From contig JAPLVZ010000013.1 in NCBI GenBank assembly GCA_026396805.1, positions 1 through 39,050 of the forward strand: a DNA stretch of 39,050 nucleotides. Reading direction: 5' to 3'. The stretch is from Candidatus Falkowiibacteriota bacterium. Lineage in GTDB: Bacteria > Patescibacteriota > Patescibacteriia > Patescibacteriales > UBA12465. Positions 3,971-6,970 of this stretch are shown here, in pieces; the first letter of the stretch is position 1; each line of letters opens with the position of its first letter. The translations under genes and the position numbers were made by a program. The notes beneath the pieces were generated by a model that saw only the letters and a list, made by a program, of their open reading frames with translations, was not told the origin of the DNA and did not search any database.

Positions 3971-5773
3971 ATGAATTTTAAACAAAATTTACCGGCGAGT
4001 AACGCCGGCGCGTATGGCGTTCGCGCCCGGTCCGGTCAAATGCCGACACAGCGGGCTGTCTTCAGGACTAAGCCGGCCGCTAAGTTACCTTTGCATCGTC
4101 CAACTTTCTCCGGACCGCATCGTCCGGCTTCTTCCGCTCAACCGCCTTTCTCCGGACCGCATCGTCCGGCTTCTTCCGCTCAACCGCCTTTCTCCGGACC
4201 GCATCGTCCGGTTTCTTTCGCTCAACCGCGAGCAGTTTTTTCTACTCAGCCCAGAGCGACTTTTTCCGCCCAGCCCCGAACGATTGCGGGCGAATCAAGC
4301 TTGAAGATCTATCCGCTCGGCGGGCAAGAAGAGGTCGGCCGTAATTGCACTGTTTTTGAATATGACGGCGATATTATTATCCTGGATATGGGGATGCAGT
4401 TTGCCGATGAGGATATGCCGGGCATTGATTATATCATCCCTAACGTTTCTTCCTTGCGCGGCAAAGAAAAGAACGTCCGCGGCGTCATCTTCAGCCACGG
4501 GCATCTTGACCATATCGGCGCGGCCCCGATTCTATTGGAGCAATTAGGCAATCCGCCAATCATCGGCCGGAAATTAACATTAGCCATGATCAAACACCGC
4601 CAGGAAGATTATAAGCGCGGTACGACCAAGAATTTAAAGACTATCACTATCAATTCCCTGGACCAGAAGATAACGTTGGGAAAATTCCAGATAAGTTTTT
4701 TCCAGGTGGAACATTCTATCATCGATGCGATTGGCGTCATTATCCAAACGCCGCACGGTACTGTTATCCATCCAGGCGATTGGCTGATGGAAGATAATCC
4801 CTTAGAGGGCCCGGTTGTCACCTATACACATTTATCGCGGCTACCGTCTCCTCGCATTTTAATGTTGGAAAGTCTCGGCGTTGCTTACTCCAAAGAAAGG
4901 GTACCGGACAAAACCACGATGGCTAATCTGGAAAGGATTATCAGCGAGGCGCCCGGTCGGGTTATTATCGGTACTTTTTCTTCGCAATTGGAACGCGTCA
5001 CTAATTTACTGGCCTATATTGAGAAAATCGGCAAGAAAGTCGCTTTGGACGGTTACAGCATGAAGATGAATGTGCATATCGCCCAAGAGCTTGGCTATAT
5101 ACCGGCCCATAAGAATATTCTTATTCCTATTGAGGATGTCAGTAAATACCCGGATGATCGGATCGTGATAATTTGTACCGGCGCTCAAGGCGAACCCAAT
5201 GCGGTTTTTTCCCGGATTGTGAATAGCAATCATCGCTCCGTGACCATCAAGAAGTCTGATGTCGTTATTTTTTCCTCTTCAGTCATTCCCGGAAACGAGC
5301 GCTCGGTCCAGAAAGTCAAGGATCAGATTTATCGCTTGAGCGATAACGTCATTCATAGCAGCATTATGGATGTGCACTCGGGCGGGCACGCTAACGCCGA
5401 GGACATAAAGAATATCCTGCATCAAATCAAGCCCGATTATTTCCTGCCGGTTTACGCCAATCATTATATGTTGGTAGAGGCTAAGAAGCTGGCTTTACGT
5501 GAAGGATTTCGCAACGACCAGATCTATGTCTTAGACAACGGGAATGTCATTAAATTCCAAAGAGGCCGGAGCCCCCTCGTTCTCAAGGAAAAAGTTAATA
5601 CCGACTATGTCATGGTTGACGGGCTCGGCATCGGCGATGTTTCTGAAATCGTGTTGCGCGACCGCCGCCTGATGGCTGACGATGGCATGATCGTCGTTAT
5701 TGCGACCATTGACGCCAAGACGGGAGCGATTATCGGTAACCCCGAACTGATTTCTCGCGGCTTGTTTATATGA
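3971..5773 (+). CDS. rnj: Ribonuclease J with proline-rich N-terminal extension; C-terminal domain in another frame
   Basis: RNase J is a metallo-beta-lactamase/beta-CASP nuclease for mRNA turnover and rRNA processing. Residues 1-108 are a basic, Pro/Ser-rich extension with three 14-residue repeats. The enzyme proper starts at about LKIYPLGGQEEVGRN (111-125). Metal motif HGHLDH is at 176-181, a further His at 248 (VEHSI), Asp at 270 (HPGD) and SGGH at 470-473. The usual PVHGE motif reads PVYAN (493-497), so the C-terminal metal-binding His is Tyr495, with a His at 498. The frame ends SRGLFI at a TGA, exactly where the family continues into its C-terminal domain, which is encoded in the -1 frame from 5770. 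No Shine-Dalgarno is obvious. Confidence 0.93.
   Translation: MNFKQNLPASNAGAYGVRARSGQMPTQRAVFRTKPAAKLPLHRPTFSGPHRPASSAQPPFSGPHRPASSAQPPFSGPHRPVSFAQPRAVFSTQPRATFSAQPRTIAGESSLKIYPLGGQEEVGRNCTVFEYDGDIIILDMGMQFADEDMPGIDYIIPNVSSLRGKEKNVRGVIFSHGHLDHIGAAPILLEQLGNPPIIGRKLTLAMIKHRQEDYKRGTTKNLKTITINSLDQKITLGKFQISFFQVEHSIIDAIGVIIQTPHGTVIHPGDWLMEDNPLEGPVVTYTHLSRLPSPRILMLESLGVAYSKERVPDKTTMANLERIISEAPGRVIIGTFSSQLERVTNLLAYIEKIGKKVALDGYSMKMNVHIAQELGYIPAHKNILIPIEDVSKYPDDRIVIICTGAQGEPNAVFSRIVNSNHRSVTIKKSDVVIFSSSVIPGNERSVQKVKDQIYRLSDNVIHSSIMDVHSGGHANAEDIKNILHQIKPDYFLPVYANHYMLVEAKKLALREGFRNDQIYVLDNGNVIKFQRGRSPLVLKEKVNTDYVMVDGLGIGDVSEIVLRDRRLMADDGMIVVIATIDAKTGAIIGNPELISRGLFI
4106..4231 (+). repeat. Three tandem 42-bp coding repeats in the RNase J extension
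   Basis: Residues 46-59, 60-73 and 74-87 of RNase J repeat the unit FSGPHRPASSAQPP, the third copy having drifted (PVSFAQPR). The first two DNA copies are nearly identical, which implies recent slippage or strong homogenisation. Two shorter degenerate units (FSTQPR, FSAQPR) follow. Adjacent copies without spacers and in-frame coding rule out a CRISPR array. Confidence 0.93.
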
Positions 5774-5958
5774 AAGAAAATCGCGATCTAATCGAGAAGA
5801 CTCGGACGAAAGTAAAGAAAATAGTGAAAGATAAGAATCCGATGACTCCGGCCGATGATGATTATATTAAGAATAAGATCCGCAATGAAATCGGCCAGTT
5901 CTTATTCACGGCTACTAAGCGTCGCCCCATGGTCTTGCCGGTAGTTATTAAGGTTTAA
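5770..5958 (+). CDS. Detached RNase J C-terminal domain
   Basis: The 62-residue frame opens with an ATGA overlap with the RNase J stop and encodes MKENRDLIEKTRTKVKK followed by a helix and IGQFLFTATKRRPMVLPVV. This is the normal end of RNase J, where [ILF]..[FY].KT.RRPM[VI].PV is conserved and which contributes to dimerisation. One extra T in the run at 5764-5766 would fuse both frames as SRGLFYMKENRD, which fits the family consensus. It is therefore either a true split gene translated by stop-restart coupling or a single-base deletion in the genome or assembly. Confidence 0.85.
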   Translation: MKENRDLIEKTRTKVKKIVKDKNPMTPADDDYIKNKIRNEIGQFLFTATKRRPMVLPVVIKV

Positions 5959-5988
5959 AATAATTTTAACCAATATTAAATAAAAAAG

Positions 5989-6013
5989 CCTAAGAAAAGT
6001 CTTGGGTTTTTTT
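5989..6013 (+). terminator. Intrinsic terminator after RNase J
   Basis: CCTAAGA, loop AAAG and TCTTGGG form a 7 bp stem followed by seven T residues, 30 bp after the last codon of the RNase J C-terminal frame. Confidence 0.88.
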
Positions 6014-6049
6014 GTGGTTAAAGTGTGGATAAAGAGGGGTGAAAAAGTA

Positions 6050-6078
6050 TTGACATGCTATCTATTATATGATATAGT
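6050..6078 (+). promoter_or_regulatory. Strong promoter of the small RNA
   Basis: Perfect TTGACA (6050-6055), 17 nt spacer, TATAGT (6073-6078). No credible open frame follows, only the structured segment ending in a terminator at 6234. The start is expected at 6084-6086. Confidence 0.85.
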
Positions 6079-6083
6079 AATGA

Positions 6084-6234
6084 GTTGTTTTAAAAAAACA
6101 GATTTAGAAAAGACCGCTTTAAACGGGTCAGGCACGACAAGCATGGGGATTTTCTTGTTAGGATTTTTCCGGCTTTATGCTCGAAAGTGCCTAAAAGAAA
6201 TTTTCTTGCCTACCCGTTTAAGTCGGTCTTTTTT
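6084..6234 (+). ncRNA. Candidate structured small RNA, about 150 nt, possibly 6S-like
   Basis: The segment has its own promoter and ends in a T run. A long closing helix pairs 6111-6127 (AGACCG, C, TTTAAACGGG) with 6213-6229 (CCCGTTTAAG, T, CGGTCT): 16 pairs and one mismatch. Inside, AGGCAC (6130-6135) can pair with GTGCCT (6187-6192), and AGCAT (6140-6144) with ATGCT (6177-6181). The 3' side has an A-rich linker with a small hairpin (AAGAA/TTCTT, 6195-6207). A second TGCCT (6207-6211) could compete for AGGCA. A rod with closing stem, asymmetric bubble and a small 3'-side hairpin resembles 6S RNA, but I cannot confirm the family. The SRP RNA motif, the RNase P core and tmRNA features are absent. 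Confidence 0.72.
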
Positions 6235-6970
6235 ATTCAAACATCCGATCCTTCCCGACTATAATATTAACGTGATCTTTTAAGATACCGATTTCCACCG
6301 GGGTATTTATTTCCATGACGCCGTCAACAATTAATTTTTCATGTTGGTTGGAAATCTTAAGACTCTTGGCGCTCAAATAAGTCCTATCTTTTTTCCTGGT
6401 CCGAATAAGGACATCTAAGAGTCCGTCGTGGGGATTGGATTTTATGTCTTCACTTTTGTCTTTCAGAAGGTTGATTATTTTTATTTCTCCTCTGGCCGTC
6501 GTTTCCACGGAATAATCCCTTATTTCTAAGGTCGTTCCCAGGCTTTGGATCGAGGCTTCATTCAAGAAGTAATGATTGCCGGCCAGGCCCAGATCTATTT
6601 TTTCGACGCGGCGCGCCAATAATATATTGCAGGCGTCTTCCGGATTATTGATGCCGAAAGAAGCGGCGATAGAGTTATCTTCCCCTATCGGAATTATGCC
6701 CAGTAAAGTCTTTTTTTGGAAATCCCCATAGATATTATCATCAATAATTGCTCCGATAATCTTATTAACTGTCTGATTATTGCCGACGGCGACTATCGTT
6801 TTCGCGCCCAGTCTAATTTCATTCTGAATAGCCGCCTTGATATTTTTTATTCCGGCTAAGCGTAATATTTTTCCGTTTAAACCCAAATCAGTCAGCCGGA
6901 TTTCTACTCGGTTGATTATTCGATTGAATTTATTCTTATTAAGATAGTCGTCGTAAACGTAAACATGCAT
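6233..6970 (-). CDS. Diacylglycerol-kinase-like protein with altered catalytic motif
   Basis: The 245-residue protein has the order of a DAGK_cat/YegS-type lipid kinase: beta-strand TIVAVG, a turn, TVNKIIGAI, then LLGIIPIGEDN and a C-terminal beta domain. The catalytic loop GGDGT is GNNQT (63-67), and GTGN is GEDN (96-99), so the nucleotide-binding residues are changed. It may be an inactive relative, a regulator or an enzyme with different chemistry. It is transcribed with the bactofilin gene 18 bp upstream and its stop overlaps the T run of the small RNA on the other strand. Confidence 0.72.
   Translation of the reverse strand: MHVYVYDDYLNKNKFNRIINRVEIRLTDLGLNGKILRLAGIKNIKAAIQNEIRLGAKTIVAVGNNQTVNKIIGAIIDDNIYGDFQKKTLLGIIPIGEDNSIAASFGINNPEDACNILLARRVEKIDLGLAGNHYFLNEASIQSLGTTLEIRDYSVETTARGEIKIINLLKDKSEDIKSNPHDGLLDVLIRTRKKDRTYLSAKSLKISNQHEKLIVDGVMEINTPVEIGILKDHVNIIVGKDRMFE

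Follow-up and report, generated by a model that had tools for sequence, protein, structure and literature searches.

The interval 6108–6234 on the forward strand is, judged from its conservation and covariation, a real structured-RNA gene. It lies in a window of 39,050 nt, the whole stretch of DNA analysed here, from Candidatus Falkowiibacteriota bacterium (assembly GCA_026396805.1, contig JAPLVZ010000013.1, positions 1 to 39,050 of the forward strand). The RNA appears to be a stand-alone gene with a constitutive-looking promoter, and it recurs across a bacterial class. We found no record of it in Rfam 15 or in the open-access literature searched. By analogy, and with about even confidence, we regard it as a housekeeping RNA of the whole class, so far unrecorded, whose probable mode of action is that of 6S or Ms1, through binding of RNA polymerase. 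Few RNAs are so strictly kept across a whole bacterial class and yet unrecorded. The genomes concerned are under 1.5 Mb and lack many standard systems, and their transcription regulation is almost undescribed.

Locus, promoter and 3′ end

The RNA locus is adjoined upstream by an RNase J gene (3971–5773, the last domain reaching 5958 in a second frame) and downstream by a small, convergent DAG-kinase-like gene (6233–6970). The sole same-strand open reading frame overlapping the locus is a 93-aa frame starting at TTG, and the loci of relatives differ from one another through compensatory pairs and indels; the absence of a plausible gene, proposed when the sequence was read without database searches, holds up. 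A terminator-like hairpin (AAAAAAGCCTAAGAAAAGTCTTGGGTTTTTTT, about 5987–6013) closes the RNase J unit ahead of the RNA promoter. The RNase J gene is itself split in two frames, its C-terminal domain ending at 5773 and resuming in an ORF at 5770–5958 (+) (Pfam RNase_J_C 1–38 and 41–102). RNase J is a single intact frame in 13 relatives of the genus, which suggests that a one-base error or a recent frameshift has split the gene in this genome.

The near-consensus promoter noted by the sequence-only reading is borne out: TTGACA-17-TATAGT scores 11/12 with an extended −10 (TG), and it is conserved in relatives. A hexamer pair scoring at least 10/12 is present in 77% of 172 distinct relative loci, against 4.5% of shuffles, and TG precedes the −10 in 144 of 151. 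Transcription would be expected to start near 6085. At the other end, the 3′ arm of the closing helix runs into UUUUUU, in agreement with the terminator proposed there; at least six T within 8 nt mark the stem end in 120 of 172 relatives. A 34-nt stretch elsewhere in the same genome (G000:C14:45960–45993, minus strand) matches the RNA's promoter region (query 19–52, window about 6048–6081) at 97% identity, and similar promoter-sized matches occur in several relatives.

Fold and anatomy

The segment 6084–6234 folds at −58.1 kcal/mol, whereas 200 dinucleotide shuffles average −32.2 ± 4.0 (z = −6.5; 0/200 as good), and six class-level members fold at z −6.6 to −10.1. The predicted fold is a single rod with a one-sided 5′ bulge (Table 1); the small 3′-side hairpin of the earlier reading has no separate counterpart in it. 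The 16-pair closing helix of that reading is real but longer, with 22 pairs including one mismatch, followed by AGGCA:UGCCU. The RNA measures 127 nt plus a putative leader of about 23 nt, and is 120–130 nt long in most relatives.

Between the two helices lies a core of 14 nt, CACGACAAGCAUGG, containing a 5′ bulge of about 10 nt opposite a 3′ strand that is fully paired or has 2 nt free. The core's first C is paired to the final G of UCUUG (swapped to G–C in two sequences), so the 3′ strand has almost nothing free. Two pairing options exist at the bulge edge, G12–G14 with UUC or G3–A4 with UC; the letters involved do not vary. The terminal helix begins with a weak, G·U-rich segment (GGG:UUC), which could open, and extends for ~25 pairs, placing the GGC/GCU tip 23–27 nt from the bulge in most relatives. 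Apical insertions of about 30–100 nt beyond this tip occur in some members of the RNA's own family and in a few others. An extra apical hairpin beyond the conserved tip is seen at L020, L023, L025, L030, L033, L034, L045, L057 and L064.

Table 1 Features of the RNA locus (window coordinates)
Feature	Position	Strand	Basis or remark
Promoter: TTGACA (6050–6055), 17-nt spacer, TG at 6070–6071, TATAGT (6073–6078)	6050–6078	+	
5′ leader of transcript (putative)	6085–6107	+	Position deduced from the −10; length differs among relatives
Conserved RNA, whole length	6108–6234	+	R1 model match, 134 bits; folds
Closing helix, 5′ arm, ending AGGCA (6130–6134)	6108–6134	+	Pair counts; class-level alignment
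Core CACGACAAGCAUGG, nearly invariant	6133–6146	+	165–171 of 171 distinct sequences identical per position
One-sided 5′ bulge CGACAAGCAU inside core	6135–6144	+	171-sequence comparison
Terminal (apical) helix, 5′ arm, starting GGGGA	6145–6169	+	Folds; class-level alignment
Apical motif GGC-loop-GCU	6171–6181	+	GG and CU invariant in alignment
Terminal helix, 3′ arm	6182–6205	+	Folds; class-level alignment
Conserved UCUUG facing core on the 3′ strand, essentially no unpaired loop	6204–6208	+	Class-level alignment
Closing helix, 3′ arm (UGCCU, ACCCGUUUAAG, CGGUCU)	6207–6230	+	Pair counts; class-level alignment
U-run after closing helix, terminator-like 3′ end	6229–6234	+	Sequence

Conservation and covariation

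A DNA search with 6030–6240 located the RNA in 86 of 98 relatives down to the level of order. An alignment of 60 members (A1) was used for an RNAalifold consensus, giving 31 pairs, 20 of them with compensatory changes. In the closing helix, taken as 21 pairs, pairing holds in 97.1% of cells and 15 pairs have changed on both sides, values that none of 500 shuffles reached on any measure; sliding the partner by 1–3 columns lowers pairing to 26–58%. These controls on the 60-sequence set leave relatedness in, and the result recurs in a far more diverged class-level set. In that set, of 86 distinct sequences from outside the RNA's own order, the closing helix beside the core is paired in 81–86 of 86 at positions 0 to −7. 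All pair types are used, as at position −1 (GC 23, AU 21, UA 18, CG 17, GU 7). The terminal helix covaries too, and sliding the register drops pairing from 94% (closing helix) and 88% (terminal helix) to 33–57%. Compensatory change in relatives, which the sequence-only reading had named as a check, is therefore present, and together with conservation and the RNA's own promoter it strongly supports a free-standing structured small RNA.

That reading had also suggested two alternative folds, with two GCCT elements competing for the same AGGC. The outer GCCT is paired with AGGC in 56–60 of the 60 sequences. The inner one (6189–6192) lacks conservation: 11 of 60 sequences form its C:G pair, and its four pairs behave like shuffles. 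The alternative AGGC:inner GCCT fold is thus refuted by the relatives.

Distribution

We built a covariance model, R1, from the 60 aligned members; its E-values are rough and genome completeness varies, and on this footing it matches 208 of 240 genomes of the class, representing 179 of 203 genera. Among 240 genomes drawn from the whole phylum there are 16 with matches, 13 of which belong to the class. An exact scan for GGCACGACAAGCATGGGGA over 84,980 species returned 89 stretches, titled Falkow-, Kerfeld-, Uhr-, Komeili-, Jackson- or unnamed Parcu-/Patescibacteria, plus a few evident mislabels. The named groups together we take to be GTDB class ABY1. The core is also found in records titled Planctomycetota (L202, JALOQQ010000003.1) and Chloroflexi (L140, JAJYOU010000002.1), the Planctomycetota title being probably wrong. 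A viral origin was searched for in 2.9 million viral contigs, which gave two pattern matches, neither with the RNA.

Most genomes carry one copy. Two copies stand in tandem, about 220 nt apart, in family f51 (L109, L274 and others), and about 2–2.6 kb apart in family f4 (L075, L076). A VanW-like gene lies convergent downstream of the RNA in 74 loci of relatives, its place being taken by the DAG-kinase-like gene in the window's genus; the genes upstream vary.

Comparison with 6S and Ms1 RNAs

The sequence-only reading had called the RNA a possible divergent 6S RNA. Two long arms around an unpaired centre do stand; the RNA has no RF00013 match, its bubble is one-sided and it is too short. Rfam release 15 places no family at the locus, either in a scan of the window or with relaxed thresholds on the locus and its distant relatives, and the covariance search suggested by that reading, 6S and SRP models included, gave no match there. 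The 6S model finds nothing on 5960–6280 at E ≤ 10. RF00013 is likewise without a match in 40 order relatives, in 27 targeted genomes and in 22 class members that also lack an R1 match. In the phylum draw of 240, with control genomes positive, 22 genomes match RF00013, none of them in the class; 16 carry the R1 RNA and none carries both, a weak separation, as the non-overlap follows the tree and about 1.5 overlaps are expected by chance. R1 and the 6S models do not find each other. R2, a model made from 14 phylum 6S RNAs, finds neither the class RNA nor the bridge candidates described below; its 22-pair structure is poor, so its negatives are weak evidence.

6S RNA is defined by a length of about 160–200 nt and a central bubble with a −10-like element in the bubble's 3′ strand (PMC8876501, PMC9130861), the shortest known being ~160 nt (PMC9130861). 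The class RNA has the long closing and terminal helices around a central unpaired region; it lacks the two-sided bubble with a −10-like 3′ strand, that strand being nearly absent, and its 127 nt plus putative leader fall outside the length range. Set beside the 6S RNAs of other Patescibacteria (RF00013), which are 143–160 nt long with a bubble open on both strands and, on the 3′ side, a hairpin CCCACCUNNNNAGG, the class RNA is ~127 nt with a 5′-only bulge and without the 3′ hairpin. The bubble sequence varies freely in those recognised 6S RNAs, whereas the bulge is nearly invariant in the class RNA. Common to both are a stand-alone gene, a long rod, a closing helix, a central unpaired segment and usually one copy, as well as, by our own comparison, a terminal helix of roughly 25–30 nt per strand with a conserved apex. 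Each is found in genomes where the other is undetected.

Neighbourhoods differ as well. Other Patescibacteria encode 6S-like RNAs, mostly below the Rfam cut-off; in 14 of 20 such loci (L117–L136) an M50 (site-2-protease-like) gene precedes the RNA by about 50 nt. The class RNA does not share this neighbourhood, being convergent with the VanW-like gene in its 74 loci. In the class, other genes, often rpsL, come after the M50 gene in the cases that are readable, and Rfam detects no 6S in 20 M50-side loci. Gene neighbourhoods of 6S vary, so this difference is a weak argument against 6S. Membership of the class RNA in 6S is not established: it fails on three tested points.

Ms1 of Actinobacteria offers a second comparison: it has the shape of 6S without being one, and it binds the core enzyme of RNA polymerase (PMC4191392, PMC9130861). 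It provides a precedent for a lineage-wide, 6S-shaped, non-6S RNA in a lineage without recognised 6S. Ms1 is a rod of about 300 nt with extra hairpins, whereas the class RNA is far shorter at ~127 nt; their sequence relation, judged by the Rfam scan alone, shows no match.

A possible RNA polymerase decoy

On the reading to which we give about even confidence, the RNA would be a decoy for RNA polymerase like 6S or Ms1. The bulge CGACAAGCAU would take the place of the exposed template strand in an open promoter, with the closing helix standing in for the downstream duplex and the terminal helix for the upstream duplex, so that the apical motif would sit about where the −35 element meets sigma. 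RNA polymerase might copy the bulge into a short product RNA, starting perhaps at the U of GCAU (5′-AUGCUUGUCGUGCC...), with the predicted product beginning AUGCUUGUCG or nearby. This product could open the closing helix and release the enzyme.

Speaking for such a 6S-like role are the two long arms around an unpaired centre, the terminal arm of near-fixed length with its apical motif in most members, the absence of a recognised 6S anywhere in the class genomes examined, and an M50-side neighbourhood without 6S. Against it stand the one-sided, strictly conserved bulge, the short length, the lack of an Rfam match and the mutual blindness of the models. The near-invariance of the bulge argues that its sequence is read specifically, whether RNA polymerase or a different protein does so. 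If the RNA is the 6S analogue of the class, a polymerase decoy can have a one-sided bubble of fixed sequence, and transcription control in these uncultivated bacteria becomes testable; if it is not, it would be a conserved RNA machine of a new kind. In both cases it qualifies at once as a candidate Rfam family, since its covariance model works and its members number in the hundreds.

Alternative explanations

A tentative but serious contender is a new ribonucleoprotein RNA without a role at RNA polymerase, in which a protein of the class would read the CACGACAAGCAUGG bulge and the GGC/GCU tip while the helices serve as ruler and scaffold. The bulge hardly varies among 171 distinct sequences although the helices on either side covary, its spacing to the apical motif is near-fixed, its one-sidedness is unlike 6S and there is no complementary target. 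Weighing on the other side, no candidate protein partner has emerged and there is no operon link, the conserved VanW-like neighbour being convergent. Outside the class, families f139 and f154 keep the rod, or a form related to it, and the bulge there is much shorter. Phrased more broadly, as a new housekeeping RNA in most of the class whose 14-nt bulge is read by a protein or machine and which is functionally unrelated to 6S, SRP, tmRNA and RNase P, we consider such an RNA possible, with more doubt than conviction.

A guide or antisense RNA, its exposed bulge pairing with helix 34 of 16S rRNA, with some other conserved RNA or with an mRNA, is improbable. The bulge is single-stranded in the model, and 11 of 12 core bases are, as we take it from inspection by eye, complementary to the universal 16S helix 34 sequence GCAUGGUUGUCGUC; a relative's contig that bears the RNA (L199) also contains the 16S segment GCAUGGUUGUCGUCAGCUCGUG. 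However, the internal G·G mismatch to 16S is invariant in 171 sequences, which argues against pairing, as selection for it should have mended the mismatch, and the 16S site itself lies within a helix. Within one mismatch, the only recurrent site complementary to the core in 30 relatives is the RNA gene itself. With no other conserved near-complement there, a protein partner is likelier than a base-paired target.

It is very improbable that there is no independent RNA and that the stretch separating RNase J from the convergent gene holds only a long terminator or 3′ UTR. The intergenic position and U-run end would suit this, but the RNA has its own conserved promoter and an invariant unpaired core, needless in a terminator; it is kept behind many different upstream genes, and the hairpin at about 5987–6013 already follows RNase J.

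Least probable of all is a divergent signal recognition particle RNA: the RNA is rod-shaped, single-copy and class-wide, and the SRP model RF00169 is silent in 40 relatives and 240 phylum genomes (controls positive in 12–13 of 14), but identity with SRP RNA is rejected by the lack of an RF00169 match, of a GNRA-capped helix 8 and of helix-8 loops, by a tip that varies in length and sequence, and by the absence of the Ffh M domain (PF02978) from 30 order relatives, with 14/14 controls positive. As a separate observation, with neither SRP RNA nor the Ffh M domain detected, these bacteria may lack an SRP or have a very divergent one.

Related rods and possible intermediates

Some related rods bear on the 6S-like reading. 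When VanW genes were followed across the phylum, the RNA was found outside the class in f139 and f154 only; these keep the rod, or a related form, with a convergent VanW gene and a bulge of a few nucleotides. L235 (family f182) matches R1 with E 1.7e-6 and no Rfam family; it is 154 nt long, with a 3′ hairpin CUCCCACUUUGGGA and unpaired stretches on both strands. L333 (family f162) is a VanW-convergent rod with a two-sided bubble, and has no R1, RF00013 or other Rfam match. L235 and L333 look intermediate between the class RNA and canonical 6S, a likeness that is suggestive only. Together with the short-bulge rods of f139 and f154 they could form a graded series, a path from or to 6S.
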